Program-made: the position numbers and the translations under genes
The notes under the pieces: generated by a model
Seen by the model: only the letters and a program-made list of their open reading frames with translations
Database searches by the model: none
Told to the model about the DNA's origin: nothing
Shown here: piece by piece, positions 3,244-25,175 of the stretch
Position numbering within the stretch: position 1 is the first letter of the stretch
Layout of the letters: every line of letters begins with the position of its first letter
DNA from: Tautonia marina
GTDB lineage: Bacteria; Planctomycetota; Planctomycetia; Isosphaerales; Isosphaeraceae
Assembly: GCF_009177065.1 (NCBI RefSeq)
Contig: NZ_WEZF01000003.1
Span: forward strand, 186,001 to 250,000
Direction: 5' to 3'
Length of the DNA stretch: 64,000 nucleotides

Positions 3244-6200
3244 ATGGGCCCGAGGGTGCGGCGAACACTCCCGGACCCGGTGAACGCCAAGCTTCTGTGG
3301 AGCCTGACGCCCATGTCTATTCTAACCCCGCGCACCCCGTGCCTGTCGAGCACGCACCCCCACCTGGTCGCCGAGTGGCACCCGACCCGTAACGGAAGCC
3401 TGTCGAGCGACCACGTGACGGCAGGGAGCAACAAGAAAGTATGGTGGCGATGTAGCAACGACCCATCACATGAGTGGCCTGCGGTGATCCGATCCCGGTC
3501 TCAGGGCAGCGGCTGCCCGATCTGCCAGGGCCGGCAAGCATCGCCAGCGACTTCCCTGAGGGCATTGCACCCGGAACTGGCCGCCGAATGGCACCCGACG
3601 CGCAATGGCGACCTGACCCCCGACGATGTCGTGCCGGGAAGCGGGAGAAAAGTCTGGTGGCGATGTCGAAGGGACACAAGCCACGAGTGGGATGCGGTTG
3701 TCGGTAGCCGCGCTCAGGGCTGCGGTTGCCCGATCTGCCGGGGCCTAAGAGCATCGCCAGCGACCTGCCTGAGGGCGTTGCATCCCGAACTGGCCGCCGA
3801 ATGGCACCCGACCCTCAATGGCGACCTGACCCCCGACGATGTCGTGCCGGGAAGTGAGAAGGTCGTCTGGTGGCAGTGCAGGAAGGACCCCTCCCACGAG
3901 TGGAAGGCCAAAGTACAGAGTCGAGCGAAGCCTTCCGGAGGATGCCCAGGATGCAAATCCCTGAGGGCATTGCACCCCGAACTGGCCGCCGAATGGCACC
4001 CGACGCGCAATGGCGACCTGACCCCCGACAAGGTAACACCTGGCAGCAAACGGAAAGTCTGGTGGCAGTGCCATGCGACACCCCCGCACGAGTGGCAAGC
4101 ACAGGTCAACAACCGGACCAACGGAGCAGGCTGCTCTATCTGCGGCGGCAGGGTGGCTTCCCCGACCACTTCGCTCAGGGCGTTGCATCCCGAACTGGCC
4201 GCCGAATGGCACCCGACCCTCAATGGCAATCTGACCCCCGACGATGTCGTGCCGGGGAGCGCCAGGGCCGTCTGGTGGCGCTGCCCAGTCGATCCGACGC
4301 ATGAGTGGCAGACAGTGATCCATCGCCGGGTCGCCGGCGTCGGCTGTCGGACCTGTGGTGGCCGTGTAGCCACTCCGACGACTTCGCTGAGAGCCTTGAT
4401 GCCGCATTTAGCGGCGGAGTGGCACCCGACGCGCAATGGCGACCTGACCCCCGACGATGTCGTGCCGGGGAGCGCCAGGGCCGTCTGGTGGCGTTGTAGC
4501 AACAATCCCTCTCATGAGTGGGAGGCGGTACCTTACAGCCGGAGTCGAGGCGGGAACGGTTGCCCGGCATGCAACGTAGGTTGGACAGTAGGAGCAATCC
4601 GAGGCTTTGTCGCATCCCTTTCCGAACATCTGGATGCGTTAACCCCAGCCGAATTGTATCTGCTCTTCCAGCAACAAGGGCTGCTCGGAATCAACGGCAA
4701 GGGAAAGGCGTTTGCCAAAGCCCTCGCCACCGGCCGTTTCCCGTCCGAGGAATTGGGCAAGTTCGTCCGAGGCGAGCCGTCGTTGGTGGATGAGTTCCTC
4801 GCCGACCCCACGCGGACGCTGGAGGGGCCGGGGTGCGAGGACGGCGACGGGGCAGTCGGACTGGCCGTTGTGCCCGACAGCCCTACTGACGGAACGGGCG
4901 GGTCCGTCGTCGCCCCGGAGGCCGAGGGGCTGCCCACCGTCGAGTCGAGCCGGGTGCTCGCGGCGCTTGATCACGCCGTGATCTCTTCGGCCGACGCCGA
5001 GGCGGTCGAATTCCTGGTCGCCTCGGCCGTGGCCAAGCTCTGGACCCATGCCTTCCTCGACGAGGCGACCGCCGTCGCCCAGGCCGAGGACTTCCACGGC
5101 AGCGTCTATGCCGAGCAGGTGAAGGATCGGTTCCTCGACGAATATCGCCGTGCCAGCAGGCTATCGGTCCCCAAAGGCTATGCCTTCGCGATCGACGGCC
5201 GGCCGGTCGCCCCGAACCTGATGCAGCGGCTGGTGGCCGTGCGGGTCCGCGACGACCGCCGGGTGGGCAACTGGTCGGGCACCGGGGCGGGCAAGACCCT
5301 CTCGGCCGTGCTGGCCTCGCGCGTGGCCCGCTGCCGCCTGACCGTCGTGTGCTGCCCTAACGCCGTGGTCGAGGGCTGGCGCGACGCGATCCTCGCCGCC
5401 TTCCCGGACAGCGTCGTGGCCACCAAGACCTTCGAGCCCGACCGGCCGGACTGTGGCCGGCCCCGCTACCTGGTCCTCAACTACGAGATGCTCCAGCAGG
5501 ACGATTCGGCGGCGTGGGTCGGCGAACTCGTCGCCCGCGAGCGGATCGACCTGGTGATCATCGACGAGGTCCACTTCGTCAAGCAGCGGGCCGTCGAGAG
5601 GATGTCCTTGCGGCGGCGCAACCTCTTCGCCCTGACCTCGCACGCCTCGGAGCGGAACCCCGACCTCCGCATCCTTGGCCTGTCGGCCACGCCGGTGATC
5701 AACAACCTCCAGGAGGGCAAGAGCCTCGTGGAACTGGTCACCGGGGTCGCGCACGAGGAGTTGGAGACCCGCGCCACGCTGTCCAACTGCATGCGGCTGC
5801 ACCAGCGGCTCACCACGCTGGGCATCCGCTGGATGCCGAAGTATGCCACCGGCTACGAGCAGGTCGAGGTCCCGGTCGATTGCTCGGCCGTCCTCGACGA
5901 GGTCCGGGCCCTGGGCCGCAAGAACGGCAACCCGTTGTCGCTGGAGCAGGTGCTCATGAAGGCCCGCCTGCCGGTGATCCGCACGCAGGTGCGGCCGAAG
6001 ACGCTGATCTACACGCACTACGTCCAGGGCATCGACCGCATGCTGCACGACGCGCTGGTCGCCGACGGCTGGCGGGTGGGCTTCTACACCGGCGAGGACA
6101 AGTCCGGGCTGGCGGGCTTCCTCGACGGCGACGTGGACGTGCTGATCGGCTCGGCGTCGATCGGTGTGGGCGTCGATGGCCTCCAGCGCGTCTGCAACCG

Positions 6201-7161
6201 GCTGATCGTGGCCGTCTTGCCCTGGACGGGCGCCGACTTCGAGCAACTCAAGGGCCGGGTGTTCCGCCAGGGCCAGGCGCAGGAGACGGTGACGCTGGTC
6301 CTGCCGCTGACCTACGCCGAGGTCGGCGGCAGGCGGTGGTCGTGGTGCGAGTCGCGTCTGAACCGGCTGCGGTTCAAGAAGTCCCTGGCCGACGCGGCGG
6401 TCGATGGCGTGGTGCCGGAGGGTCACCTGCGGACCCCGGCCCAGGCATACCAGGACGTGATGGGCTGGCTCCGGCGTCTGGATGATGGCCAGGTCGAGGC
6501 CGTCGCACGCACGCCGATCCGCGTGCCCGACGTGCCCGGCGGCGAGGCGGACGCCCGTCGTCGCCGCCACGGCGACTTCACGAAGATGAACCAGGTCTGG
6601 GGCCGGATGGCCAGCGCATCGCTCCACCGCCGGCTCCAGGCCGACCCCGGCGAGTGGGCCCACTACCACGCCCTGTTCCGCTCGGCCCGCGCCGACTGGG
6701 CCGTCGTGCCGTCCGAGGAATTGATCCGCTGGTGCCGCCGCCGGAGCGGCTACGTCATCGGCGACTTCGGCTGCGGCGAGGCGACGCTGGCGAAGGACCT
6801 CGCGGACCTGCACGTCGTCCACAGCTTCGACCACGTGGCGATCGACGATTCCGTCGTCGCCTGCGACATGGCACGCGTGCCGTTGGAGGACGAGTCGCTC
6901 GACCTAGCGGTCTTCTCGTTGTCGCTGATGGGTGCTGACGTGACGGCCTACCTCCGCGAGGCGCACCGGACGTTGAAGCTCGACGGCGAGTTGCACATCG
7001 TCGAGCCGACCTCGCGATTCACCGACCGCGACCGCTTCGCGCGGGACCTGGCCCGGCTGGGCTTCGACGTGGTCCGCGTCGAGGACTGGTGGAAGTTCAC
7101 CCACATCCGGGCCTTGAAGACCGACCGGACGCCCCAGGACGGAGCCGCGAGCACATTCTGA
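3244..7161 (+). CDS. Six zinc ribbons + SNF2-like helicase + Rrp8-like methyltransferase fusion (1305 aa)
   Basis: Residues 35-450 are six copies of a 66-69-residue treble-clef zinc ribbon: AEWHPTxNG, then WWxC, HEW, and a closing GCPxC, giving a Cys-His-Cys-Cys ligand set (DUF4379/PF14311-like). A linker follows. Residues 650-1060 are a superfamily 2 ATPase with Walker A GTGAGKT (679-685), DEVH (774-777), SATP (about 814) and motif VI GRVFRQGQ (about 1004-1011), which is SNF2-like. Residues 1170-1300 are a SAM-dependent methyltransferase with GDFGCGEA (1173-1180), CDMARVPLED (1207) and VFSLSLMG. That set is the signature of the Rrp8/nucleomethylin family. The start could also be the ATG at 3313, which has a GGAG upstream and begins just before the first ribbon. 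It lies 260 bp upstream of the Cmr operon on the same strand. A role in defence is inference. Confidence 0.85.
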   Translation: MGPRVRRTLPDPVNAKLLWSLTPMSILTPRTPCLSSTHPHLVAEWHPTRNGSLSSDHVTAGSNKKVWWRCSNDPSHEWPAVIRSRSQGSGCPICQGRQASPATSLRALHPELAAEWHPTRNGDLTPDDVVPGSGRKVWWRCRRDTSHEWDAVVGSRAQGCGCPICRGLRASPATCLRALHPELAAEWHPTLNGDLTPDDVVPGSEKVVWWQCRKDPSHEWKAKVQSRAKPSGGCPGCKSLRALHPELAAEWHPTRNGDLTPDKVTPGSKRKVWWQCHATPPHEWQAQVNNRTNGAGCSICGGRVASPTTSLRALHPELAAEWHPTLNGNLTPDDVVPGSARAVWWRCPVDPTHEWQTVIHRRVAGVGCRTCGGRVATPTTSLRALMPHLAAEWHPTRNGDLTPDDVVPGSARAVWWRCSNNPSHEWEAVPYSRSRGGNGCPACNVGWTVGAIRGFVASLSEHLDALTPAELYLLFQQQGLLGINGKGKAFAKALATGRFPSEELGKFVRGEPSLVDEFLADPTRTLEGPGCEDGDGAVGLAVVPDSPTDGTGGSVVAPEAEGLPTVESSRVLAALDHAVISSADAEAVEFLVASAVAKLWTHAFLDEATAVAQAEDFHGSVYAEQVKDRFLDEYRRASRLSVPKGYAFAIDGRPVAPNLMQRLVAVRVRDDRRVGNWSGTGAGKTLSAVLASRVARCRLTVVCCPNAVVEGWRDAILAAFPDSVVATKTFEPDRPDCGRPRYLVLNYEMLQQDDSAAWVGELVARERIDLVIIDEVHFVKQRAVERMSLRRRNLFALTSHASERNPDLRILGLSATPVINNLQEGKSLVELVTGVAHEELETRATLSNCMRLHQRLTTLGIRWMPKYATGYEQVEVPVDCSAVLDEVRALGRKNGNPLSLEQVLMKARLPVIRTQVRPKTLIYTHYVQGIDRMLHDALVADGWRVGFYTGEDKSGLAGFLDGDVDVLIGSASIGVGVDGLQRVCNRLIVAVLPWTGADFEQLKGRVFRQGQAQETVTLVLPLTYAEVGGRRWSWCESRLNRLRFKKSLADAAVDGVVPEGHLRTPAQAYQDVMGWLRRLDDGQVEAVARTPIRVPDVPGGEADARRRRHGDFTKMNQVWGRMASASLHRRLQADPGEWAHYHALFRSARADWAVVPSEELIRWCRRRSGYVIGDFGCGEATLAKDLADLHVVHSFDHVAIDDSVVACDMARVPLEDESLDLAVFSLSLMGADVTAYLREAHRTLKLDGELHIVEPTSRFTDRDRFARDLARLGFDVVRVEDWWKFTHIRALKTDRTPQDGAASTF
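3349..4590 (+). repeat. Six tandem coding repeats of about 200 bp (zinc-ribbon units)
   Basis: The zinc-ribbon copies are also repeats at DNA level. The segment encoding 'GDLTPDDVVPGS' is nearly identical in units 2, 3, 5 and 6, and GCCGCCGAATGGCACCCGAC recurs in units 2-5. Unit 3 is shorter, lacking a few residues after the last Cys pair. Such identity suggests recent unit duplication or gene conversion within the gene. Confidence 0.8.
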
Positions 7162-7421
7162 CGCCGGCCGACTTGGCCGGAGGGCCGCGCCGGTTTGGCC
7201 CCCGGCCACCCGATCGTCCCGCGCCCCGGCGCGGGACGAAGCCCAGAGGAGGGCGAGGGTGGTGATCGTAGGCCGGGATGGCCGCCTGGTCCAGGTACGG
7301 GGTGCTCGGGACGGCCGGGGTGGAGCCGACGCGGTGCTCATGCTGCGATGATTTTCTGTCATGTCCTTGTGGCTCGGGCTTCAACCCGGTATGGTGTCGT
7401 CGCGCATGCCATCAATATGTC

Positions 7422-9428
7422 ATGACGGTTGTCTCGATGGTCAGCGAGGCAGACTGGTCGTGTCCCCGATGTCCGGCATATCGGCCGGAGTGTGACTCAA
7501 CGTCGGAGACCCCGGACGTGGACCCTCTCGACGCCGCCGATGCCGAAACTCGGGGTCATTTCCTGGCGTTCTCCCTGGGGCCCGTCCAGCCGTTCATCGC
7601 TTCGGCCCGCTCGGTCCGCGACCTCTGGACCGGCAGCTACCTGCTGAGTTGGCTGTGCCTCGCCGCGATGCAGCCAATCCGGCATCGCTTCGGTGACGGG
7701 GCGATCCTCTCGCCGAGCCTCGACGGAAATCCCTTGCTGGAAACGCGAGGGGACGCCCGCGAGGGGTTGCCCTCGGCCTGCTTGCCGAACCGATTTCTTG
7801 CCCGCATCCCCGACGATGACGACGACACCACCCGCCTCTTGGCCGATGAGTGCGAGCGGAGTTGTCGAGCGGGCTGGAAGCGGATCAGCGGCGCGGTCCG
7901 ACAGGGGCTCGCAGTTCGCATGGAGGGCCTCGACCCGCACTGGGATCGGCTCTGGGACGACCAGGTGGATGACTTCTTCGAGGTCCATACCGTCGTCCTG
8001 CCGCTCGCTCGATGTGACGCGCCGACGCTTGAACGCCTGCTCGGCGAGCAGAATGACCCGACTCGGCCCGATGGGCTCGCCTGGGGCCGCTTGCAACTGA
8101 TCGCCCGCCTGATGGAGGCGCGACGGTCTGCCGGGCACCATCCTGCCTACGCTGCCCGGGGCGACGTGCCCCAGAAGTGCTCGCTGCTGGGCAGCTACGA
8201 GCAGATGGGGCCGGCCGGGCTGGACGAGTCCCGACGCTTCTGGGAGGCGTTGGCCGTCCCCGAGAACGCCTGGTCCGGCACCAGGACGCGGCAGTCCGAG
8301 CGGCTCTGCGCCGTCAGCTTGGTCAAGCGGTTCGCCTGGCCGGCGTTCCTGCACGAGGAAGTGGGACTCCCGCCCGAGTCCGGCTACTTCCCAGACACGG
8401 CCACCGTGGCGGCTTCCAGGTGGCTCGCGACGGAGCCGGAGATCAGGCCAGATCGCGAGCGAGGGGAGCATGGGGCCTGGTCCGGGCAGTGGCTACACCG
8501 GGCCGAGCATGAAGGCCCCGGCAGGAGGCGCGTCGATGATGACCGCGACCCTCCCCCTCGTGACGGACTCCTGCGGACCATCCGGCGCAAGCGGCTCGCC
8601 CAGGATGCCCCCCCGGCGTACCTGGCAATCCTGATGATGGATGGCGACCGGCTGGGGCAATGGCTCGCAGGGATCGGGCCCGACGGTACGACAGCGACCC
8701 GGGTCGCACCGAACGAGTGGATCGCCGCGATCAGCCGAGCACTGGCCCAGTTCTCGGTCGGGCGCGTCCCGGAGATCGTCCGCCGGCACGGCGGCATCCC
8801 CATCTACTCCGGCGGGGACGACGTGCTCGCCTTCCTGCCCCTCGAAGATGCCCTCCCCTGCGTCCGCGAACTCCGAGATGCCTACGTCGAAGGATGGGCC
8901 CGGTGGGTCGAGCCGCTTTGCGAGCCGGAGGCCCGGTCGGGGGCCACCGTCAGTGCCGGCCTCGCCGTGGTCCACCACAAGGAGGACCTGCGATACGCCC
9001 TGGGCCGGGCCCGAGCGGCCGAGCATGCCGCCAAGGAGGCGGGTCGGGACGCCGTGACGCTGGCGATCTGCCGCCGATCGGGCGAGCACACATCCGTCGA
9101 CCTGCCCAGGGAGATGGTCCCCCGTCTGGAACGATGGCACGCGTCTTTCGCAGCGGGCGCATCCGATCGGTGGCTGTACACCCTCCGTTCAGAGTTTCCG
9201 ACGCTTGGTGGCGATGGGCTGCCCTGGCCGGCCGTTAAGGCCGAAGTCCGGCGCGTTGCGGCTCGCGCCGAAGATTCGGCACGGCGGATCGACCCCGGCG
9301 AAGCGGTGGGCCTGCTGGACGCCTATCGCGAGGCGATGGAGGGGCGAGGTCGATCCCGGGAGCGCGTGCTGGAAGACTTCATCACCCTGGCCCAATCGGC
9401 CTCGTTCCTGGCCCGAGGGAGGGACTGA
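7422..9428 (+). CDS. cmr2: Type III-B CRISPR protein Cas10/Cmr2 (cyclic oligoadenylate synthase)
   Basis: This is the large subunit of the Cmr effector complex. The palm begins at about residue 45 with FSLGPVQPFIASARSVRDLW, and the catalytic palm carries MDGDRLG and GGDD (464-467), the motif that makes cyclic oligoadenylate from ATP on target RNA binding. I see no His-Asp motif or room for an N-terminal HD nuclease, so DNA cleavage by Cas10 is probably absent. The frame is open from 7278, but the first 48 residues look unlike any Cmr2. I chose ATG 7422; ATG 7437 is also possible. The stop overlaps the cmr3 start (TGATG). Cyclic oligoadenylate would feed the CARF proteins downstream. Confidence 0.9.
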   Translation: MTVVSMVSEADWSCPRCPAYRPECDSTSETPDVDPLDAADAETRGHFLAFSLGPVQPFIASARSVRDLWTGSYLLSWLCLAAMQPIRHRFGDGAILSPSLDGNPLLETRGDAREGLPSACLPNRFLARIPDDDDDTTRLLADECERSCRAGWKRISGAVRQGLAVRMEGLDPHWDRLWDDQVDDFFEVHTVVLPLARCDAPTLERLLGEQNDPTRPDGLAWGRLQLIARLMEARRSAGHHPAYAARGDVPQKCSLLGSYEQMGPAGLDESRRFWEALAVPENAWSGTRTRQSERLCAVSLVKRFAWPAFLHEEVGLPPESGYFPDTATVAASRWLATEPEIRPDRERGEHGAWSGQWLHRAEHEGPGRRRVDDDRDPPPRDGLLRTIRRKRLAQDAPPAYLAILMMDGDRLGQWLAGIGPDGTTATRVAPNEWIAAISRALAQFSVGRVPEIVRRHGGIPIYSGGDDVLAFLPLEDALPCVRELRDAYVEGWARWVEPLCEPEARSGATVSAGLAVVHHKEDLRYALGRARAAEHAAKEAGRDAVTLAICRRSGEHTSVDLPREMVPRLERWHASFAAGASDRWLYTLRSEFPTLGGDGLPWPAVKAEVRRVAARAEDSARRIDPGEAVGLLDAYREAMEGRGRSRERVLEDFITLAQSASFLARGRD

Positions 9429-10549
9429 TGACGCCCCCGGACCGCGTCCGCATCGGCCTCGGAATCGAGGCGCTCGACCTGCTATTCTTCCGGGGCGGCC
9501 GGCCCTTCGGCCCCGCGACCCGTGCCGAGGGCGGGCTGCCCCAGCCACAGACCCTGGCAGGGGCGCTGCGGACGGCGGCGCTGGCCGCGCACGGCTTCGA
9601 CTTCGCCGGATGGTCGCGAAGGGTCCGGGAGGCTTCGGCCCAAGGAAAGGGTGGCCTGGCGGGTCTCCTGGAGGAATTCGGTGCCCCGACGGGCCTGGTC
9701 GGTAGCCTGTTCCGCGGCCCTTGGTTGATGGAACAGGCTGGAGGATCGGCGCCCTCGCTGCTGTTGCCCGTCCCGGCGAACCTCTACAGGACCGAGGCTG
9801 GGCGATGGGCCCGCTCCGACCCGCTGCCCGAAGCTCCTCCCGGCTGGGAGTCGAGGCCATCGGCCAGGCGACCCCTCTGGCGGCGTGGCGATCCATCCGC
9901 GAAGCGGCCCGAGGGGTTCCTGCGTCCCGCCGGCATGAACGCCTACCTCCGAGGGGGCGTCCCTACCGATGCGGATTGGGTCAGGCCGGCCGAACTGTAC
10001 GACTTCGACAGTCGGACCGGCCTGGAGATCGACCCGCAGACCCTGGCCGGGGCCGAGGGCCAGTTGTATGCGACTCGGATGCTCGCCCTGCGGCGGCATG
10101 TCTGTTTCTATGCCGAAATCCTCCCCCCGACCTCGCACGCCGATGCCGTCCGTTGCCTGCTCGGCGGGCCCTTCCCGTGGGGCGGCGAGGGCCGGTATGC
10201 CGTCGCCCGGGTGCTGGACCACTGCGTTGAATGGCCCGACGGCGGGGATGCGGAGGGGCTGCCGCTCCGAGTGCTGGCCTCACCCGGGCTCTATCGCATC
10301 GCGAGCCTGCCCGATCGGATCGCCGAGGAGTACCTGGTCGCCGTCGCCTCCGGACGGGCCTTTGCCGTCTCGGGCTGGGATGTGGCCCGCAACGCCCCAA
10401 GGCCGACCCGATTCGCTGCGCCGGCCGGCGCAGCCTACTTCCTCGACGCCGACGTATCCGAGGTCGAGACATCATCGCTCTGCACCGACCCGGACCTCGT
10501 CGCCGAGGGCTGGGGATTCGCCCTCAAGGGAGCCTGGCGGCATGCCTGA
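9428..10549 (+). CDS. cmr3: Type III-B CRISPR protein Cmr3 (Cas5-like RAMP)
   Basis: Cmr3 caps the Cmr complex next to Cas10 and binds the 5' handle of the crRNA. The N-terminus (IGLGIEALDLLFFRGGRPFG followed by a PQPQTLAGALRTA segment) is typical of Cmr3: an RAMP strand, the FRxGRPF loop, then the 'P.p.tl.GalR' helix. At 373 residues it has the usual length. It overlaps cmr2 by one base and cmr4 by 8 bases, so translation is very likely coupled through the operon. Confidence 0.85.
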   Translation: MTPPDRVRIGLGIEALDLLFFRGGRPFGPATRAEGGLPQPQTLAGALRTAALAAHGFDFAGWSRRVREASAQGKGGLAGLLEEFGAPTGLVGSLFRGPWLMEQAGGSAPSLLLPVPANLYRTEAGRWARSDPLPEAPPGWESRPSARRPLWRRGDPSAKRPEGFLRPAGMNAYLRGGVPTDADWVRPAELYDFDSRTGLEIDPQTLAGAEGQLYATRMLALRRHVCFYAEILPPTSHADAVRCLLGGPFPWGGEGRYAVARVLDHCVEWPDGGDAEGLPLRVLASPGLYRIASLPDRIAEEYLVAVASGRAFAVSGWDVARNAPRPTRFAAPAGAAYFLDADVSEVETSSLCTDPDLVAEGWGFALKGAWRHA

Positions 10550-11513
10550 GAACGTCGTCTCCGCGATCCTGGGCCTGCACGCCCAGACCTCGCTCCATCC
10601 CGGGGCTGGGACCGCCCTGGGCATCGTCGACCTGCCAGTGCAGCGCGAGCGTCACACGCGATGGCCGACGATCCCCGGCTCCTCGCTCAAGGGCGTGCTC
10701 CGCGACGCCTGCCGGGAGCGCTACAAGACCGAGTATGCTGGCGATCGCCAGCGGACCAATCAGGAGAGCCCCAGGCTCCGCGCCGCCTTCGGCCCGCACA
10801 CCGAGGCGGCCGGAGAATCGGCCGGCGCCCTGAGCCTCACCGACGCCCGACTGCTGGCCTTCCCGGTCCGGTCGCTCCGGGGCGTCTTCGCCTGGGTGAC
10901 TTGCCCGGCCGTTCTGGATCGGCTCCGTCGCGACCTGGCGCTCTGCCGCTTCGGGTCCATCGACTGGCAGGTCCCGCTTGTCGAGAAGAATCGGGTGATG
11001 CTCCCCTCGGACGACTGCCCATGCCTGATCGAGGGCGGGCGCGTCGCCCTGGAGGAGTTCCTCTTCGTGCGTGCTGGCGACTCGGACGGCCTGATCGCTG
11101 CCTGGATCGCCGATCACGTCCTGCCCGATTCGGCCGCCTTCGACGCGACACGAGCCCGTTTCCGACGCAGCCTGCTCGTGCTGCACGACGACGACTTCGA
11201 CCACTTTGCCCAGTATGCCACCGAGATCAACGCACGAATCGGTTTGGACTACGAGACCAAGACCGTCAAGGGCAAGGCCCTTTTCTACGAAGAGTACCTG
11301 CCCCCGGAGACGCTCTTCTACGCGCTCGTGCTGGCCAATGAGGCACGGGCCAGGGCCAATGGCGAACATCCCTCGGCCGGCCGTGCCATGGGGGCGGCGG
11401 ATGTTTTCGATGTCCTGAGGGAGACGCTCCCGGAGGTCCTCCAGGTGGGGGCGGACCAGTCGATCGGCAAGGGATATTGCGCCACGAGACTCGCCCGAGG
11501 GAGGCACGACTGA
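10542..11513 (+). CDS. cmr4: Type III-B CRISPR protein Cmr4 (Cas7-like backbone, target RNA cleavage)
   Basis: Cmr4 forms the backbone filament and cuts target RNA. The start region shows LGLHAQTSLHPGAGTALGIVD and then the Gly-rich RAMP loop IPGSSLKGVLRDACR, both characteristic of the Cmr4/RAMP superfamily. The acidic residues needed for RNA cleavage are probably in the GIVDLPVQRERHTRWP loop (an Asp near residue 26). I chose ATG 10542, which overlaps cmr3 by 8 bases; the frame is open upstream but that part shadows cmr3. The C-terminus has QVGADQSIGKGY, the usual Cmr4 closing Gly-rich element. At 323 residues it is normal in size. Confidence 0.88.
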   Translation: MPENVVSAILGLHAQTSLHPGAGTALGIVDLPVQRERHTRWPTIPGSSLKGVLRDACRERYKTEYAGDRQRTNQESPRLRAAFGPHTEAAGESAGALSLTDARLLAFPVRSLRGVFAWVTCPAVLDRLRRDLALCRFGSIDWQVPLVEKNRVMLPSDDCPCLIEGGRVALEEFLFVRAGDSDGLIAAWIADHVLPDSAAFDATRARFRRSLLVLHDDDFDHFAQYATEINARIGLDYETKTVKGKALFYEEYLPPETLFYALVLANEARARANGEHPSAGRAMGAADVFDVLRETLPEVLQVGADQSIGKGYCATRLARGRHD

Positions 11514-11911
11514 TGGCCGGCCACCAGACCCTCGATCAGCGTCGTGCCGCCCACGCCTGGCGGGTCGTTCAACAGGTCAAGGATGAGGGCAGGGACGATG
11601 CCAGGCGGGAATTCAAGCTCCAGGCCAAACGTCTGCCGGCCCGGGTCGTGACGGCGGGCCTTGGCCAGGCCCTGGCCTTCCTGGAGGCCAAGGACTACGC
11701 GCCACACCTGCGGGCCGCGTTGACTGACTGGATCGGGCAGCAGGTGCTGGTGGCCCCAGGCCGCACTGGCGACCGGCTGCTCCGGTGGGTCGTCGAGGGT
11801 GACTCCGACTTCCTCCGGCTCGCGACCGCCGAATGCCTTGTCTACTTGCAGTGGGTCGTCCGCTTCGCCGAGGCGGAGTTCCGCGACATCAGCGACGTGG
11901 AGGAGGTCTGA
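11513..11911 (+). CDS. cmr5: Type III-B CRISPR small subunit Cmr5
   Basis: This is a 132-residue all-helical protein that starts QTLDQRRAAHAWRVVQQV, the standard opening of the Cmr5 small subunit, which lines the inner face of the complex and contacts the target RNA. It uses the ATG that overlaps the cmr4 stop (TGATG). The assignment rests on that N-terminus, size and position between cmr4 and cmr6. Nothing odd is seen. Confidence 0.85.
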   Translation: MAGHQTLDQRRAAHAWRVVQQVKDEGRDDARREFKLQAKRLPARVVTAGLGQALAFLEAKDYAPHLRAALTDWIGQQVLVAPGRTGDRLLRWVVEGDSDFLRLATAECLVYLQWVVRFAEAEFRDISDVEEV

Positions 11912-11914
11912 GGG

Positions 11915-14422
11915 ATGCCCATCGGCAGGGTCCAGTTCTGGGTACGCTCCCGATCCCAAGGCGCCGTCCTCGATGAGCGAGGCACGCGTCTCCTGTTCAC
12001 GGCGAAGGACCTGGAAGGGCTCAGGGTCGAGGAGATTCGCGATGGCCTGGAGGTTGCCTTCAACCTCGGCCCCGATGGGACTGCCCGCCGCGTCCGTCAA
12101 CCGCGATCGTCATTCCTTCGTTTGCCGAAATCCCTCGACAGGGACGATCCCCTCCTGAGCGCTGTCCCGCTGTCGCCCTCGCTCCGTGACTTGGTGGAGC
12201 GGTTCAAGGGGCTCGTCCATCCCGGCCTCCGGTTGGACAAGTACATGATGCCCGCCGTTAACCAGGAGGGGCAGAAGCGGGTCCTGTCCGAGGTCGCGGA
12301 GCGATCGCAGGGGGATACGCAACTCCTCGCCGAGGTCTTGCGGCGTCGGGACGCGATGCTGGACGCCGCCGGGACCGTGCGTTGGGGGCGCGAGACTAAG
12401 GGGCCGCTGACACTGCACCTGGCACGGGCCTCGGCGTTGGAGAACGCCGGCCTTTGCCTGCACCCGATCTACGGGTTCACCTTCCTTCCCGGCTCGGGCC
12501 TCAAGGGCCTGGCCCGTGCCTATGCCGAGACCGTCTGGCGGCCGGGCCAGCCCGATGACGCGGCGGCGGCAAGGGACATTGAACGCATCTTCGGCTTCAT
12601 TCGGGGGGCGGGGGACGAGGGGGCGGCAGCCGGCACCATCATCTTCCACGACGCCTGGCCTGCGTCCTGGCCCCGGCTGATGGTGGACATTATCAACAAC
12701 CACCACTTTGGCTACTACCGGGGGGAGGACTGGCCGGGAGACTGGGAATCGCCGTCGATGGTCTACTTCCTGGCCGTGCCCGCAGGCCAGGTGTTCTCGT
12801 TCGCGCTGGGCAAGCGGCGAGGAGATGTTGAGGATCGCCTGCTGGGCCTCGCCCGCGCATGGCTGGACGGTGGCCTGACTCACCTGGGCTGCGGGGCCAA
12901 GACCGCCGCCGGCTACGGCCGCTTCACCGCGCAGGGCGACGAACCGCCCGTAGCAAGCGGCCCGCACCGCACGAACTTCTCGGCGGCCCTGTCGCTCGAA
13001 TCGCCGGCCTTCCTGGCCGGGGCGAGCCAACAGCAGGACGACTGCGACCTCCGCCCCGCGACGCTCCGGGGCCTGCTCCGCTGGTGGTGGCGGACCCTGC
13101 ACGCCGGCGCCCTCAACCTGACGCAGTTGCGGGACCTGGAAGCGGCGATCTGGGGCAACACCGCTGCCGGCAGCGTCGTCGATCTCCAGATCGAGTCGCA
13201 GCAACCGGCCGCCTTGCCCTACGACAAACGCACCAGGGTCAATATGAGGCAGGAGGAGAAGGTCGGCCCCTATGGCATCCCCAAGGCCGACCCGGGGAAG
13301 ACGACCCAGGGTCTCTGGTATGCCACTCGCGGTATGGATGACAGCGGCCGGCGCCGCTTCGTCATCGAACCCGGGGCGACCTGGACGATCCGGCTGACGG
13401 CACGGACCAATCAGGCGCTGCGGGATCGCGGGATCGGCCCCGAAGACGTGCTCGCCCAGGCCCGTGCCGCGCTCTGGCTGCTCTGCCGGTACGGCGGGGT
13501 CGGGTCCAAGGCGCGCAAAGGATTCGGGTCACTCTCGTCCGACGGGCTGGACGACCTAGACCTCGAACGCTGCCGCGAGGTCTCCCGCCGGCTCCGCAGG
13601 CGTCTTGGCCTGCCCGAGGACGAACGCCCGGGGACGGCCGAATCTCCGGCCCTCTGCGACCTCGCGGCAGAGGAAGTCGAGGCCGAGTTCCCCTGGGCCG
13701 ATGTCTGGGCTGTGCTCGATCAGGTTGGCTTCGCCTGGCAGGCGTTCGCCAAGAGGTTTTCCCACGACCGCGATCAGCAGGAGCAGTTGGTCCCGACCTG
13801 GTCCGAGCGGGATGCCCCCACGGGCTTCACGAAGGCGTCGCTCGGGGTGCCCCGGCGGATGGATGGCGGGGACCGGCGATGGGCGGGCGAACGACACGCA
13901 TCGCCGGTCCACATCCACGTCGAGCGGGCCGGCGGCAACGCCCATCGGGTCCGGGCCATCGCCTTCGCCGCACCCAGGCTGCCGACTCGCGAGAGCAGCG
14001 TGACGTTCCTGCAAACGTTCCTCGACCACCTGCGTGACGACCTCCTGTGTCGGTCGCAACTTCCTCCGAGGTCCTCCCGGCCGAGCCCGAGCGGGCGCGG
14101 CGGGCGACCCAGCCCGGCAGGGGGCGGGGGACTCGGCCAGCGCCGGGGTACGGGAACGGCCCGGACGCGGGGCGAACTCCATGGCGGTCCAGCGCCTGCT
14201 GCCCCGCCCCGTAGCCATCCCAAAGCCGGCGATCGCGTCGAGGCCACCTTGCTCCCCGAGCGTACGAAAAAGGGCGGTTGGAAGGCGCGACACGAGCCGA
14301 CCGGCCTGAGCGGGCCGATCGTCGATTCGGCCAAGGTGCCCTCCGACAAGGAGCCTGGCAACGGCATGACGCTCATCGTTCACGCGGTCGGCGCCCGCGA
14401 GATGTCGTTCCGAGTTGAGTGA
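11915..14422 (+). CDS. cmr6-cmr1: Cmr6-Cmr1 fusion flanked by OB-like segments (835 aa)
   Basis: One chain appears to hold two RAMP subunits. Residues 1-65 resemble a small OB or cold-shock-like domain (GRVQFWV...GAVLDERGTRLLF). Residues 70-345 are Cmr6, with the Gly-rich loop FLPGSGLKGLARAYAE (190-205). Residues 350-690 are Cmr1, with LRPATLRGLLRWWWRTL (about 380-397), the best Cmr1 signature. A Pro/Gly/Ser/Arg-rich, probably disordered linker (about 710-760) leads to a C-terminal segment containing GDRVEATLLPERTKKGGWKA, again OB-like. It starts 4 bases after cmr5. The fusion fixes the two subunits at 1:1 at the 3' end of the crRNA. The Cmr6 and Cmr1 calls are firm; the OB-like ends are inference. 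Confidence 0.85.
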   Translation: MPIGRVQFWVRSRSQGAVLDERGTRLLFTAKDLEGLRVEEIRDGLEVAFNLGPDGTARRVRQPRSSFLRLPKSLDRDDPLLSAVPLSPSLRDLVERFKGLVHPGLRLDKYMMPAVNQEGQKRVLSEVAERSQGDTQLLAEVLRRRDAMLDAAGTVRWGRETKGPLTLHLARASALENAGLCLHPIYGFTFLPGSGLKGLARAYAETVWRPGQPDDAAAARDIERIFGFIRGAGDEGAAAGTIIFHDAWPASWPRLMVDIINNHHFGYYRGEDWPGDWESPSMVYFLAVPAGQVFSFALGKRRGDVEDRLLGLARAWLDGGLTHLGCGAKTAAGYGRFTAQGDEPPVASGPHRTNFSAALSLESPAFLAGASQQQDDCDLRPATLRGLLRWWWRTLHAGALNLTQLRDLEAAIWGNTAAGSVVDLQIESQQPAALPYDKRTRVNMRQEEKVGPYGIPKADPGKTTQGLWYATRGMDDSGRRRFVIEPGATWTIRLTARTNQALRDRGIGPEDVLAQARAALWLLCRYGGVGSKARKGFGSLSSDGLDDLDLERCREVSRRLRRRLGLPEDERPGTAESPALCDLAAEEVEAEFPWADVWAVLDQVGFAWQAFAKRFSHDRDQQEQLVPTWSERDAPTGFTKASLGVPRRMDGGDRRWAGERHASPVHIHVERAGGNAHRVRAIAFAAPRLPTRESSVTFLQTFLDHLRDDLLCRSQLPPRSSRPSPSGRGGRPSPAGGGGLGQRRGTGTARTRGELHGGPAPAAPPRSHPKAGDRVEATLLPERTKKGGWKARHEPTGLSGPIVDSAKVPSDKEPGNGMTLIVHAVGAREMSFRVE

Positions 14423-14436
14423 TTGGACCCCCGTCG

Positions 14437-15627
14437 ATGCGTATCCTCCTCTGCCTGCTGTCCGAGCAGCACGTGCCCAACCTGCTCTCGGTCCACCACT
14501 TCAAGCCCGACCGGCTCGTGCTGGTCGAGACCGGGGAGATGAGGCGGCGTCACGCCGCCGAGCATCTCCTCGGGGCCCTAGAGGCCGGCAGCCTGGACTA
14601 CACTGACCGGCACGAGGTCCAACCGCTGGAGCACGAGGACTCCCTGCCCGAGGTCCGTCGCGCCTTGCAGGAGGCATTCGGACGCCATCCATCGGCCGAG
14701 TGGATCGTGAACCTGACGGGTGGCACCAAGCCGATGTCCATCGCCGCGTTCATGTTCTTCTCGGTGATGGACGCCTCGTCGATCTACCTCAGTGGCCGGG
14801 AGCCGAACCTCATCCGCTGGATGGACGGTTCGAAGGTCGAGCCTTGTGACTATCGGCCCAGCATTGCCGAGTTTCTCGCCGGTTACGGGTTTCCCTCACG
14901 AAAGCCCCCCGAGAAAGTCGCCGAGGCCGAGGAGCGAGCACGAGGATGGTGGGACCTGGCGCGGGTCCTGGCGACCCAGAGCACTGCCGACGGCTTGATC
15001 CGCTTCGAGGACGATCGGGAGCGAGGCAAGGCCCGGGACAGGGGCTTCGACCTTGAACGCCGGCACCTGGAACCCGGGGCGATCGCGGACCCGGACCTCC
15101 TCCGAGCCATCAACATGCACTTCGGCTTGGCCGAGCAGGACGGCGTACCGACTGGCAAGCTGGACAAGTACCAGACGCAATTCCTGCTGGGGGGCTGGCT
15201 GGAAGTCTTCATCTGGGGCCTGCTCGATCGCCATCGGGACGCTCTGGACATCTGGGACGTGCGGCTCGGGTTGGAGCCGACGAGCCCAGACACTCGGGTT
15301 GGCAACGACTTCGACGTGGCCTTCATGCACCGTTACCGGCTCTGGATGGTCGAGTGCAAGACCGGCAGCCAGGAGCACGACCCCGGCGGCGACATCCTCT
15401 ACAAGGTCGAGGCCGTCATCCGTCAGTTCCGGGCCCTGCACGTGCGTACTGCCTTGGCCACGACCTCCGACTTCCTGACCGACCCCCGGACCGGCACAAT
15501 CAGGGAAGGACATCGCAACCGGGCTGCGTCCTACGGCTGTGCGTTGGTGACCCGCGATCAGGTCCGTGCCATGGCCGAGGCCGACGACCCTGTCGATCTG
15601 ATCCGAGAGGCCCTGGGGCTCCGATGA
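14437..15627 (+). CDS. CARF-nuclease effector, Card1/Can2-like
   Basis: This is a predicted ancillary effector of type III immunity. A CARF sensor binds cyclic tetra-adenylate and switches on a PD-(D/E)xK nuclease. The N-terminus ILLCLLSEQHVPNLLSV and the ligand-loop motif NLTGGTKPM (about residue 93) match the DUF1887/Card1/Can2 group. The nuclease shows NDFDVAF (Asp291) and, 15 residues later, VECKTG (Glu306, Lys308). At 396 residues it fits the family. I chose ATG 14437; a GTG at 14419 overlapping the previous stop is possible but adds only six residues. Known relatives cut supercoiled or single-stranded DNA and RNA, leading to dormancy. Confidence 0.82.
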   Translation: MRILLCLLSEQHVPNLLSVHHFKPDRLVLVETGEMRRRHAAEHLLGALEAGSLDYTDRHEVQPLEHEDSLPEVRRALQEAFGRHPSAEWIVNLTGGTKPMSIAAFMFFSVMDASSIYLSGREPNLIRWMDGSKVEPCDYRPSIAEFLAGYGFPSRKPPEKVAEAEERARGWWDLARVLATQSTADGLIRFEDDRERGKARDRGFDLERRHLEPGAIADPDLLRAINMHFGLAEQDGVPTGKLDKYQTQFLLGGWLEVFIWGLLDRHRDALDIWDVRLGLEPTSPDTRVGNDFDVAFMHRYRLWMVECKTGSQEHDPGGDILYKVEAVIRQFRALHVRTALATTSDFLTDPRTGTIREGHRNRAASYGCALVTRDQVRAMAEADDPVDLIREALGLR

Positions 15628-15628
15628 C

Positions 15629-16774
15629 ATGCGACCCGCCACCACGCTGATCAGCACTGTCGGCACGAGCCTCTTTATGCCGAACCTCGCCGGGTTGCGG
15701 GCCGACGACCCCGACCCCGTGCGGAACCGGCTGGCCGCCGCCTACGACGCACGAGAATGGGACGCCGTGGCCGGGGCCCTGGCGACATTGCCCCCCACCG
15801 AGCGGACCTGCGGTGCCGAGATCAACTCGATCGCAAGCCTGCTGGCCAGGGGATACGCCGTCCCCGATGCGAACCTGTTCTTCTGCCACTCGGATACCGA
15901 CGACGGCCGGGCCATCGGTCGGGTCCTGACTGCTTACTACCGCCGGGCCGGCCATCCCATCGCCGAGACGAGGGTGATCGACGGATTGCAGGACAGCGAT
16001 CCCAGCCGGTTCCGCACTGAGGGCCTGCGCAACCTGGCCAGGGTTGTCTGCCGGCTGGTGCGCGACTATGGCCCCGGCGCATGCGCCATCAACGCCACCG
16101 GCGGGTACAAGGCCCAGATCGCCGTGGCCGTATTGCTGGGCCAGGCTCTCGGCGTTCCGGTCTACTACAAACACGAGCGGTTCGACGAGATCATCTCCTT
16201 CCCGCCGATGCCCGTGGCGCTCGACGTGCGGGCCTGGATGCGTCACAGCGGCCTGCTGGCCCTGCTCGACGCCGAAGGCCAGGTGCCGGCCGCCTCGCTC
16301 GCCGAAGACCTGGCGGATGGGGGCGAGGTCCTCGAATGCTTCGTCGACCGCGTTGAGGTCGACGGCGAGGAGTACCTGGCCCTCTCGCCGACCGGCCAGA
16401 TCGTCCATGAGACCTTCCGAGAACGGTTCCGCACCGAGCGTGACCGACTCCTACCCCCTCCTGTGCTCGCCTCGGAGAAGCACCCGCCGAAGCTCGGCGG
16501 CCACGGCGTAATCCTCCGCCACCGCGAGGAGTTGCGGCGATACCTCGCGGCGATCACCGACGGAGTCCCGCAGGTCCGATCGTGCCATACGGTCTATTGC
16601 AACCCCGACCTGCCCCGCCCCCTGATGTTCCGGCTGAGGGGCGAGGAGGTCCAGGGGACCTGGTCTGACGGCTCCGAGGCGGTCACATTCGCGGTCGAGT
16701 CGTCGGCGACGACCGACGGCCAGCGTGAGGCCGTCGTCGCGGCCCTCAACGACTGGCTCCAGGCACACCGGTAG
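15629..16774 (+). CDS. CARF-wHTH protein with unassigned C-terminal domain (possible RNase effector)
   Basis: The N-terminal half is a CARF domain of the APE2256/Csm6-N type: LISTVGTSLF at residues 7-16, NATGGYKAQIAV at about 154, and YYKHERFDEIISFPPMPVAL. A winged-helix segment follows (about 200-260: HSGLLALLDAEGQVPAASLA). The last 80 residues contain YCNPDLPRP and end in a helix after TFAVESSATTD. CARF-wHTH-RelE proteins (Cami1 type) share this order, so the tail may be a ribosome-dependent RNase, but I cannot confirm the fold. The APE2256 domain could also act as a ring nuclease that degrades the signal. The gene starts one base after the Card1-like stop. Its TAG stop is in frame with the cas1 remnant that follows. 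Confidence 0.75.
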   Translation: MRPATTLISTVGTSLFMPNLAGLRADDPDPVRNRLAAAYDAREWDAVAGALATLPPTERTCGAEINSIASLLARGYAVPDANLFFCHSDTDDGRAIGRVLTAYYRRAGHPIAETRVIDGLQDSDPSRFRTEGLRNLARVVCRLVRDYGPGACAINATGGYKAQIAVAVLLGQALGVPVYYKHERFDEIISFPPMPVALDVRAWMRHSGLLALLDAEGQVPAASLAEDLADGGEVLECFVDRVEVDGEEYLALSPTGQIVHETFRERFRTERDRLLPPPVLASEKHPPKLGGHGVILRHREELRRYLAAITDGVPQVRSCHTVYCNPDLPRPLMFRLRGEEVQGTWSDGSEAVTFAVESSATTDGQREAVVAALNDWLQAHR

Positions 16775-16792
16775 CTCGAACGCCCCGAGGCA

Positions 16793-17041
16793 GTGGCCAC
16801 ACTCTACGTCACCAAGCCAGACCCCGACTGCCCCGGTGGTGTTCGCCTGACCCGCGAGGGCTTGAAACCCTTCTTCACCGAATGGGAAACGCACTTGCTC
16901 CGGCCGTTGCGGGAGGCGGAGCCCGACGCCGAGGGTCCCGACCGGCTCGCTGTCAGGCCACTCCTCGACCGCCAGATCGAACGGCTGGTGGCCGACCTGC
17001 GTGGCGGCCCCGCCTACCGCCCCTTCGTCTATGGAGGCTGA
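16793..17041 (+). pseudogene. cas1: Cas1 C-terminal remnant (82 codons)
   Basis: The 82 residues match only the last part of Cas1: GGVRLTREGLKPFFTEWE, then a helix RPLLDRQIERLVADLRGG and a closing YRPF. Full Cas1 proteins are roughly 300-340 residues, and the metal-binding Glu, His and Asp lie upstream of this part, so integrase activity cannot remain. The reading frame is the same as that of the preceding CARF gene, separated only by its TAG and six codons, as if a deletion joined the two. A GGAGG near its end serves as ribosome binding site for cas2, which may explain why the piece persists. Confidence 0.75.
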
Positions 17042-17044
17042 TCG

Positions 17045-17350
17045 GTGCCGACCCATGGCGAGGCGACCCGCTACCTCGTCTGTTACGACATCCCCGACAC
17101 CCCCCGGCGCAACCGGATCGCCAAGTGCCTGGATGATTTCGGCGGCCGCGTCCAGTATAGTGTCTTCGAGATGGTCCTCGATCATCGGCTCTTTGACAAG
17201 CTGATCGAGGAATTAACCGCTATAGTCGACCCGGCCTCCGACCGCGTCTCGGTCTATCCGCTTTGTGCCGCCTGCTCCAGGAAGTCGCTACTGCTCGGCC
17301 GGCGTGCCGATGAGGTCCGACCCGGTGATGAAATCGTCTTTATCCACTGA
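17045..17350 (+). CDS. cas2: CRISPR adaptation protein Cas2
   Basis: This is a small ferredoxin-fold protein that bridges two Cas1 dimers during spacer capture. RYLVCYDIPDTPRRNRIAK carries the conserved Asp of the first strand, and VQYSVFEMVL is the usual second strand. At 101 residues it has normal length. The start is a GTG with GGAGG six bases upstream, inside the end of the cas1 remnant. With Cas1 truncated, it has no partner in this window, unless a full Cas1 is encoded elsewhere. Confidence 0.9.
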   Translation: MPTHGEATRYLVCYDIPDTPRRNRIAKCLDDFGGRVQYSVFEMVLDHRLFDKLIEELTAIVDPASDRVSVYPLCAACSRKSLLLGRRADEVRPGDEIVFIH

Positions 17351-17585
17351 GTCAGTGATGCACGTCTAACGGGCCAAGACGCCCTGTTTTGCCTGATCGT
17401 TATCTTCAGCGCCTCCTTGGGAACCGTCGGTTACGGAACGTTCTAAACCTTACCAAGGTCTGGATTTTCGTAAGCGGATTAGCCCGGAATGCACGAACTT
17501 CCTTAGGAAGCATCCTGCCCTCCGACGCCGGTTACGGAAATTGCCCGTGCAACTTATTTTCTGAGAAGGAGTTGCGCACTGTGCC
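17351..17585 (+). promoter_or_regulatory. CRISPR leader
   Basis: This non-coding segment between cas2 and the first repeat is richer in A and T than its surroundings. It contains the 11-mer CGGTTACGGAA twice (17428-17438 and 17529-17539), exactly 101 bp apart. The perfect repeats lie at this end and the worn ones at the other, so this is the leader side, with array transcription left to right. Confidence 0.7.
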
Positions 17586-18803
17586 GCGTACGTCCTCGCC
17601 CCGATCACGAGGGGATTGAAACACATGGTACGGGCGTCCTCAAGGAGCCTGTCGATGCCGATCCGCGTACGTCCTCGCCCCGATCACGAGAGGATTGAAA
17701 CGATCAGGCTATTGGCCAGGGCTGCGATGGGTGGGCTCCACGACGTACGTCCTCGCCCCGATCACGAGGGGATTGAAACGTTGATCCACGCCTTCCACTC
17801 GCTCCTCAGCCACTTCGGGCGTACGTCCTCGCCCCGATCACGAGGGGATTGAAACATCAGGCCGTCATCCATCGGCCGGTAGTTGGGCTCAGTCGGGTTG
17901 CGTACGTCCTCGCCCCGATCACGAGGGGATTGAAACGCATACGTGCGCCCTGGATTTGACGCTCGGGATCATTACGGGCGTACGTCCTCGCCCCGATCAC
18001 GAGGGGATTGAAACCAGAAGAGCCGACCGCAGACCTCGTAGTAGCGGTCCTCCCAGTTCTGCGTACGTCCTCGCCCCGATCACGAGGGGATTGAAACTGA
18101 TGGAGTCGAGCAGTTGCTCGCGGTCGGCAAGGATTTGCGTACGTCCTCGCCCCGATCACGAGGGGATTGAAACAACGTCCTGGTAATCACGGGCATCGAA
18201 CGCCATGTCCGTAGCGTACGTCCTCGCCCCGATCACGAGGGGATTGAAACATGTTATATGCGAAGCACGCATCAACATCTTGATCCATATGGCGCACGTC
18301 CTCGCCCCGATCACGAGGGGATTGAAACGTGGCGAACCGCATGTGGACGAACGTCTCCTGGTCCTCCGGGATGCGTACGCCCGCGCCCCGATCACGAGGG
18401 GATTGAAACGCGTCGGGGCTCCAGTGTGAGCGAAGCGTGTGGGTCCGGGCGTATGTCCTCGCCCCGATCACGAGGGGATTGAAACATGCCACGCGATTCC
18501 TTGCTCGTGACGATCGACGCCTGTTCGGCGTACGCCCGCGCCCCGATCACGAGGGAATTGAAACGTTGATCGTCGCTTGCCTCGCAGTGGTTCCCAGTTA
18601 TGCGATAGCGCGTACGCCCGCGCCCCAATCACAAGGGGATTGAAACGACGTTTTGATGTTTTCGGACAAAGCCTTGATTTCGGCTTCGACTTGTACGTCC
18701 ACGCCCCGAACACGAGGGGATTGAAACGCCGTCACCGCGAGATAGGGGTCGCGGAATTTGTCCCGCTCGCGTATGCCCCGCCCTGTTCACGAGGGGATTG
18801 CAG
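17586..18803 (+). CRISPR. CRISPR array, 16 repeats (last one degenerate), 15 spacers
   Basis: The repeat is 37 nt, starting GCGTACGTCCTCGCCCC and ending GGGGATTGAAAC, so crRNAs should carry the type III 8-nt handle AUUGAAAC. Repeat starts are 17586, 17665, 17743, 17819, 17900, 17978, 18061, 18137, 18214, 18292, 18373, 18449, 18528, 18610, 18691 and 18769. Spacers are 39-46 nt. The leader-proximal repeats are nearly identical; from the tenth on they drift, and the last ends ATTGCAG and has lost the handle. CCCC and GGGG can pair around GATCACGA in almost all copies. The array sits between cas2 and cas6 on the same strand. I could not match any spacer to sequence in the window. Confidence 0.97.
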
Positions 18804-19675: not shown

Positions 19676-19785
19676 GGTTCCCAGGGCACGGATGCCATCA
19701 ATGCCTGGTCATCGGACAGGACGGAGATTACGATGGCAGTGATGTCGAACTCCATGAATGCTCCCAGACGCCTTGCGTGCGCCTC

Positions 19786-24239: not shown

Positions 24240-24317
24240 CGTTCGATTCTTGCTCGTTTCTTGGCCTAGATTACGAGTGGTTGCTCAAATCGACAGCACC
24301 AAGGAGCCAAGAACACC

Positions 24318-24632
24318 ATGCCATCCCCACTGTACCAGTACCCGCACTCCGCGAGGGTTGATCTCGATGAGGCTTTCCCGGGCCTTCGCGAGAAGGTGAC
24401 AACGGAGAACGTCCAGATCATCGGGTCGCTGATCGAGGAATTCAAACAAGCGTTTGGTGACGACGTTGAAACCGAATTGGAAGAATTCATCCGGGAAGGA
24501 ATCTCTGGTGACTCCGATTCCTGGAATGGCACGGTAGAACGCAACGGCACGACGATCCCGCTGAATTTCATGATTGACGATGATCTCGACGAGAACGATC
24601 GTCGCGTTTACGTAATCTGCCCTCGACCTTAA
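24318..24632 (+). CDS. Small acidic hypothetical protein (104 aa)
   Basis: I do not recognise a family. The protein is acidic, with a helical middle (TENVQIIGSLIEEFKQAFG) and a C-terminal beta-like part containing WNGTVERNGTTIPLNFMIDD. It has an AAGGAG about 12 bases upstream of the ATG, and lower GC and different codon use from hsdS, so it looks like a real, separately acquired gene. It follows hsdS by 78 bp on the same strand. A role as an inhibitor or antitoxin is possible from size and charge alone, but nothing more supports it. Confidence 0.6.
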   Translation: MPSPLYQYPHSARVDLDEAFPGLREKVTTENVQIIGSLIEEFKQAFGDDVETELEEFIREGISGDSDSWNGTVERNGTTIPLNFMIDDDLDENDRRVYVICPRP

Positions 24633-24757
24633 GCCGACAGGGCTTGAACGATCGTTTGTCAATCGTTGCCCCTGTCTCGATCGAGCAGGCGATCGAGGCC
24701 GCAGGCACCATGCAGGACGCGGACCAGTCGAGCCTCGGCGGGGTTCCTGCCATCGGA

Positions 24758-25018: not shown

Positions 25019-25175
25019 GCCGGGCCCTCCTCTCGGATCGAGCATACCCCGCCGGGAGCGGGTCGCCAAGGCGACCAAGGCCGCCTGGCGCTCAGCTTCG
25101 TAATGATCCACAGGTCCGCAATCCCCTGCCTGATCCGGGGAGCGATCACCCTCTGGATCGGAGGACCGACCCGAG

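Follow-up and report, generated by a model that had tools for sequence, protein, structure and literature searches.

A solitary, horizontally moving gene that joins an exchangeable zinc-ribbon array, a SNF2-type motor and an Rrp8-type methyltransferase in one chain

Introduction

Type ISP and Type I restriction-modification systems combine target recognition with the joint action of an SF2 translocase and a methyltransferase. DISARM likewise contains a SNF2-like helicase (DrmD) and a methyltransferase (DrmMI/DrmMII). Zinc fingers of the CapR, DUF723 and DUF4379 type are proposed to be modular DNA-binding parts of phage homing endonucleases, and their modularity has been suggested to diversify the targets (PMC10448857, PMC12350094). 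The subject of the present analysis is a gene at positions 3244 to 7161 of a 64,000-nucleotide stretch of the Tautonia marina genome (contig NZ_WEZF01000003.1; the whole stretch is called the window hereafter), whose product unites an N-terminal array of DUF4379 repeats, a SNF2-type motor and a C-terminal methyltransferase of the Rrp8 family. The parts are known and the whole is apparently new: the protein fits no known system tested, and the newness lies in the architecture, not in demonstrated biology.

The combination of target recognition, SF2 translocase and methyltransferase is shared with type ISP and Type I systems. However, the Pfam, NCBIfam and PADLOC scans gave neither a nuclease family nor an N6_Mtase match, the Rrp8-type methyltransferase lacks a DPPY motif IV, and a repeat array stands in place of the target recognition domain (TRD). 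From DISARM, with which the SNF2-like motor and a methyltransferase are shared, the family differs by the absence of a drmA/B/C context; the genes next to the window copy are cmr genes, and the DrmD match of the window protein is short and at motif level (PADLOC 25.6 bits; NCBIfam 26.5 bits against a cut-off of 610). The homing endonucleases with zinc-finger arrays (PMC10448857, PMC12350094) have the same or related modular repeats, a variable repeat number, presence in phages and one clear gene-splitting insertion in common with the family, in which motor and methyltransferase take the place of the nuclease and which in addition occurs widely in cellular genomes and on plasmids.

Rrp8/nucleomethylin (PF05148; PDB 2zfu) resembles the methyltransferase including the conserved region before motif I, and the window copy is 42 % identical to human Rrp8 with a TM-score of 0.84 and the same motif set. 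Rrp8 lacks the motor and the repeat array of the prokaryotic family, and its substrate is rRNA; furthermore, the histidine after the motif II aspartate (FDH), near-invariant in the prokaryotic family, is a leucine in human Rrp8. A related layout is that of the INT_rpt-helicase of genome G373 (L006/L047; L047:8219-14629), with the same arrangement of array and motor and 40 % motor identity. It lacks the methyltransferase, and the gene of a 1275-aa RecD-like SF1 helicase follows 42 bp downstream, which suggests that the array-motor module takes other partners; the G373 pair may be a separate two-gene system built on this module.

An earlier note on this DNA had stated that no described defence system with such a layout is known, and no described system of this layout was found in the open-access literature. 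The search of the same open-access papers gave none on a prokaryotic or phage Rrp8, on an array-motor-Rrp8 fusion, on N1-methyladenine in phage defence or on Rrp8 together with SNF2. DUF4379 is mentioned there three times, in passing.

Domain layout of the protein

The gene is a single uninterrupted frame of 1305 codons on the plus strand with a coding-type composition (GC3 0.85 versus GC2 0.51). Judged from the sequence, codon 24 (MSILTPRT, ATG at nucleotide 3313) is a likelier start than the called one. The features are as follows, the motifs being read in the sequence.

3244..7161, plus strand: whole gene with array, connector, SNF2-type motor and Rrp8-type methyltransferase (1305 aa as called)
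3364..3534, plus strand: DUF4379 repeat 1 (78.5 bits)
3577..3744, plus strand: DUF4379 repeat 2 (81.2 bits)
3790..3957, plus strand: DUF4379 repeat 3 (82.7 bits)
3982..4152, plus strand: DUF4379 repeat 4 (81.2 bits)
4195..4365, plus strand: DUF4379 repeat 5 (71.0 bits)
4408..4575, plus strand: DUF4379 repeat 6 (76.9 bits)
4576..5130, plus strand: putative connector between array and motor, recognised by eye from translations of homologues with either array type
5131..6420, plus strand: SF2 motor of SNF2-like fold (Pfam, structure matches, motifs)
5278-5298, plus strand: motor Walker A, GTGAGKT
5563-5574, plus strand: motor DEVH
5683-5694, plus strand: motor SATP
within 6244-6276, plus strand: motor motif VI, GRVFRQGQ
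6568..7158, plus strand: Rrp8/nucleomethylin-type methyltransferase (Pfam, PDB, structure matches, motifs)
6760-6783, plus strand: methyltransferase motif I, GDFGCGEA
6823-6846, plus strand: methyltransferase SFDHVAID
6862-6891, plus strand: methyltransferase CDMARVPLED
6916-6933, plus strand: methyltransferase SLSLMG

The reading frame and all motifs quoted in the earlier note (GTGAGKT, DEVH, GRxxRxGQ, GDFGCGEA, CDMARVPLED and SLSLMG) are present, GRxxRxGQ in the form GRVFRQGQ. Its six zinc ribbons correspond to six DUF4379 repeats in Pfam (E 7e-123), which are treble-clef zinc ribbons, and its SF2/SNF2-like motor agrees with Pfam matches to ResIII, Helicase_C and SNF2 as well as with SNF2 remodellers as best structural matches. 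The C-terminal Rrp8-like methyltransferase was rightly named, as Methyltransf_8 matches it, but its boundary has to be moved, the domain starting nearer to residue 1110 than to residue 1165.

The same domain layout was found again in proteins of 40-65 % identity from unrelated organisms. Roughly estimated, dN/dS is 0.13-0.32 for array plus connector, 0.10-0.21 for the motor and 0.07-0.23 for the methyltransferase; array, motor and methyltransferase are alike under purifying selection, which is weakest on the array. Because the layout recurs in unrelated organisms and dN/dS is about 0.07-0.32 in all parts, the protein is neither a chance product nor an assembly artefact.

The methyltransferase domain

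The Rrp8 family model Methyltransf_8 (PF05148) covers residues 1110-1280 with E 4.6e-44 and 151.3 bits against a cut-off of 27, and the homologues scanned score between 102.7 and 158.7 bits. In the PDB the domain (METHYLTRANSFERASE) has one strong sequence match, human RRP8/nucleomethylin (2zfu; E 8.6e-35, 123.6 bits), followed by a generic O-methyltransferase (E 0.044, 16.8 bits). A greater nearness to ordinary class I methyltransferases had been named beforehand as the outcome that would speak against the assignment; the domain is far nearer to Rrp8. The AlphaFold model used for the structure comparisons (mean pLDDT 80) gave for this domain against 2zfu a TM-score of 0.84 in Foldseek and a Z-score of 26.5 in VIA-align, with an rmsd of 1.9 Å over 199 residues at 37 % identity. 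Family members are 33-42 % identical to human RRP8, which sits on a long branch of the methyltransferase tree; these values fall within the 33-79 % identity of the members to one another. Among the 18 cellular and plasmid members the S-adenosylmethionine (SAM) motif and the acidic residues are conserved, and most phage copies likewise have an intact SAM motif.

SLSLMG stands where N6-adenine enzymes have DPPY, so N6 chemistry is unlikely. By homology to Rrp8 the product may be N1-methyladenine (m1A), for which the chances are put a little short of even. The remaining PF05148 matches in the Tautonia marina genome reach at most 34 bits, and the window protein is the sole strong Rrp8-type protein there. 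No further PF05148 match at E <= 1e-15 was found in 293 other genomes of the same phylum or in 14 control genomes.

The exchangeable repeat array

The core of motor and methyltransferase is constant across the homologues, and the N-terminal array is swapped among four repeat types. DUF4379-type homologues carry 3 to 12 repeats per array; in the Tautonia marina genome the window protein is the only one with DUF4379 repeats. Arrays of INT_rpt (integrase repeat) units occur on the same core in Chloroflexota, Simkaniaceae and Nitrososphaerota, and DUF723-like arrays as well as a fourth repeat type were found on viral contigs. On the core tree at least six changes of array type are needed for five states. 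One viral locus (L070) has, by eye, an apparent mixture of DUF723-like and INT_rpt units; at another (L074) an open reading frame (ORF) of DUF723 repeats lies just upstream of a motor-methyltransferase ORF without array. An alignment of 61 DUF4379 repeats has both high-entropy and low-entropy columns, and no target code can be derived from it in the absence of targets.

On a 308-kb viral contig, four INT_rpt-repeat ORFs in a row lie directly upstream of an array-less motor-methyltransferase ORF (L093:319-6564); this array is apparently broken into pieces. L019:11922-14150 in Simkaniaceae encodes a protein of 743 aa in which six DUF4379 repeats are combined with a weak match to the restriction endonuclease MTES_1575 and a match to an I-TevI-like DNA-binding domain; a family member of the INT_rpt type lies 1 kb away.

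The motor and the nature of the substrate

The SF2 motifs I, II, III and VI of the window motor are all intact, and across 18 homologues the Walker A and SAT cores are invariant or almost so. In Foldseek the best structure matches are Chd1, Ino80, Isw1, SWI/SNF, CSB and Mot1, and SNF2 double-stranded DNA (dsDNA) translocases make up nearly all of the best 50. The best VIA-align matches are SNF2 translocases, too (Ino80, Z 28.2). Because of this SNF2-type motor and the link of the repeats to homing endonucleases, DNA is favoured as the nucleic acid bound by the array, and the protein as a whole probably acts on DNA.

A serious rival is an enzyme directed at RNA. The targets found by array and motor would then be structured RNAs (rRNA, tRNA or phage transcripts), in which m1A made by the Rrp8 domain would alter or stop translation. 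The Rrp8 family itself is one of rRNA methyltransferases. In the PDB a single chain matched DUF4379, that of mt-SAF33, a mitoribosome assembly factor of trypanosomes, and it is this match that gives the alternative its weight; Foldseek places the predicted array nearest to mitoribosomal proteins. The motor fold is compatible with RNA, too, because DEAD-box RNA helicases come next with Z about 23.5-23.7 in VIA-align. However, the motor's best matches are dsDNA motors, arrays of 3 to 12 repeats and the exchange of repeat types are ill-suited to one fixed rRNA site, and related array modules are tied to DNA homing endonucleases (PMC10448857, PMC12350094). The Simkaniaceae neighbour protein, too, has a restriction-endonuclease domain, weakly matched, in one chain with its six DUF4379 repeats. 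On balance, an RNA target is unlikely.

Occurrence and mobility

In about 85,000 species genomes scanned, family members were found at 22 loci, from Planctomycetota, Myxococcota, Chloroflexota, Actinomycetota, Chlamydiota, one proteobacterial metagenome-assembled genome (MAG), Thermoplasmata, Nitrososphaeria and others. Three plasmids carry the gene, among them a cyanobacterial one with 59 % identity to the window protein. Within a sample of 392 genomes of the same phylum only the window's own copy and one motor-only relative were found; samples of other phyla had the gene in 3/200, 2/251, 2/189 and 1/296 genomes, query genomes counted in. One Nitrososphaeraceae genome (Archaea) holds several copies or fragments. 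Bacterial and archaeal copies are intermixed on the core tree, on which the position of the long-branch phage rows is unsure, and the gene therefore moves. The family is rare, solitary and horizontally moving.

A self-mobile element with shared ends was considered and rejected: in blastn comparisons of the paralogues in two genomes and of close homologues the similarity lies mainly inside the gene. L014 and L018 share one additional stretch upstream of it.

Viral copies and the gene-splitting insertion

Eleven IMG/VR contigs of up to 413 kb carry the family methyltransferase, most of them with the fusion. They were recovered with the methyltransferase alone as query, the first viral scan with a motor-methyltransferase alignment having returned distant helicases only; a second scan added further viral contigs. 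No isolate phage record with the gene was found. Four viral records matched a terminase large-subunit model, three over the cut-off, and phage-type tRNA nucleotidyltransferases lie near the gene in others. A GOLLD RNA is located at L077:10585-11004 on a 102-kb viral contig which also carries a family member. The terminase-like matches and the GOLLD RNA point to tailed phages as the source of the large contigs. For nucleocytoplasmic giant viruses the capsid model PF04451 gave nothing, in a scan that had no positive control. Some viral contigs may be plasmids, and L091 looks cyanobacterial.

Homing endonucleases are known to split phage genes. In L067 the two halves of a dNMP-kinase gene are set apart by the family gene, a second kinase and a putative endonuclease of HNH type, which Pfam did not confirm; when joined, the halves give one continuous alignment with 35 phage records. 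In L068 the family gene is directly followed by a truncated second mnmA, and a GIY-YIG/NUMOD3 endonuclease lies upstream. L073 has a NUMOD4-HNH_3 endonuclease near the gene; the endonucleases of L068 and L073 are confirmed homing endonucleases. In L077 an IS1595 transposase is found upstream. These arrangements resemble the splitting of phage genes by homing endonucleases, short of proof of homing. For L067 and L068 an intron of group I or II surrounding the gene was rejected, no Rfam match reaching the gathering threshold.

These loci, the array repeats of homing-endonuclease type and the existence of decayed copies favour the view that the gene is part of a homing or mobile insertion, its product spreading its own gene or a linked endonuclease by a lesion or motor action that promotes recombination into insert-free gene copies. 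Against this, cellular copies stand between intact housekeeping genes, no endonuclease was recognised in most neighbourhoods read, mobile-element ends were not found and paralogues within a genome are alike mainly in the coding region; moreover, homing endonucleases abound in jumbo phages, so that adjacency may be chance. This reading is quite doubtful.

Anti-restriction methyltransferases are common on plasmids and in phages. Since the family gene is present on both, the protein might mark the DNA of its carrier and so hide it from restriction or other attack. However, a methyl group on the Watson-Crick face would harm the carrier's own replication, and genome-wide marking wants low specificity, but the family has long arrays; self-modification is thus improbable.

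Neighbourhood of the gene

Downstream of the window gene lies an ordinary type III-B CRISPR system (7278-18800) with cmr2, cmr3, cmr4, cmr5, a cmr6-cmr1 fusion, two effectors, cas2 and an array of 16 repeats; no cas1 was seen among the ORFs scanned at this locus. A type I restriction-modification system (19591-29621) follows.

7216..7237, plus strand: perfect inverted repeat with 8-bp arms in the gap before cmr2, a possible hairpin (read from the sequence)
11915-14422: single-chain cmr6-cmr1 fusion
14419-15627: Card1-like effector
15629-16774: CARF-DUF2103 effector
17045-17350: cas2
17584-18800: CRISPR array, 16 repeats
19591-22632: hsdR
22629-24239: hsdS
26244-27188: DUF4357/RAMA-like gene with a weak GIY-YIG match, between hsdS and hsdM
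28092-29621: hsdM

Lying on the same strand as cmr2 and 117 bp upstream of it, the gene could be an accessory of the type III-B system. The inverted repeat, however, would argue weakly against a shared transcript with cmr2, the III-B operon has two CARF effectors of its own, and no CRISPR genes were seen beside the homologues at the 22 genome-scan loci or the three plasmid loci. The plasmid homologues have no cmr genes beside them, and no Cas families appeared in the neighbour tally or among the neighbours scanned. For this lack of linkage the accessory role was rejected as highly improbable.

The homologues' neighbours are mostly housekeeping or plasmid genes. Among the 25 PADLOC families listed for 116 neighbour proteins, PD-T4-6-type kinase models are the most widespread, each in two members. 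The earlier note's placement of the gene in a defence island does not generalise, because the homologues were not seen with CRISPR neighbours and have few defence matches around them; they stand alone among housekeeping, plasmid or phage genes, and defence genes are not enriched. In a Polyangia genome an MmeI-type restriction-modification gene (L018:5533-8817) overlaps the frame of a family member by 22 bp.

Proposed mode of action

Beyond the observed architecture, intact motifs, array exchange, mobility and selective constraint, a DNA substrate, an m1A product and a role in conflict are proposed. The protein would be a stand-alone, mobile, nuclease-free DNA methyltransferase that is targeted by its array and driven by ATP, in conflict or homing between mobile DNAs; this is put forward tentatively, at somewhat less than an even chance. 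Choice of the target would fall to the array, a task also ascribed to the same repeats in phage homing endonucleases, and the motor would spend ATP in moving along or distorting the bound duplex. The Rrp8 domain would then methylate a base with S-adenosylmethionine as the donor, and its homology suggests N1 of adenine as the site. This position is on the Watson-Crick face and normally hidden in the duplex, which would explain the need for a motor in cis; that a SNF2 motor lays it open is conjecture. A target so marked could no longer be copied or transcribed, or would be driven into recombination. The role would be interference between mobile DNAs, be it in defence of a host or plasmid, in competition between phages or in homing, a possibility to be held with the same reserve; most likely, cells or plasmids would turn the protein on the DNA of phages and plasmids, or phages and mobile insertions would turn it on their rivals.

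Several points weigh against this proposal. The mt-SAF33 match, the mitoribosomal proteins nearest to the array, the DEAD-box alignments and the action of Rrp8 itself on rRNA have been named above. Strand separation is not classical for SNF2 motors. Among the phage and archaeal copies several are broken, a state as compatible with selfish DNA as with a useful gene, and the missing enrichment of defence genes belongs here, too. Moreover, no catalytic activity is known for any family member.

Significance

Since the gene stands alone, as one protein with two catalytic sites and one array, the question is directly testable. In its full extent the idea is of a nuclease-free interference or homing machine, in which exchangeable arrays address the DNA, bases are laid open by a SNF2 motor and pairing-blocking N1-methyladenine is made by an Rrp8-type enzyme, and whose mobile gene shares ancestry with eukaryotic Rrp8; taken together, this is unlikely to hold in every part. 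If an array-addressed, DNA-methylating motor is indeed at work, genomes would have a means of attacking or marking DNA that leaves it uncut. A further gain would be a repeat array of exchangeable modules with a decipherable target code, and a universal ribosome-modifying enzyme of eukaryotes would be linked to a mobile gene common to phages, Bacteria and Archaea.

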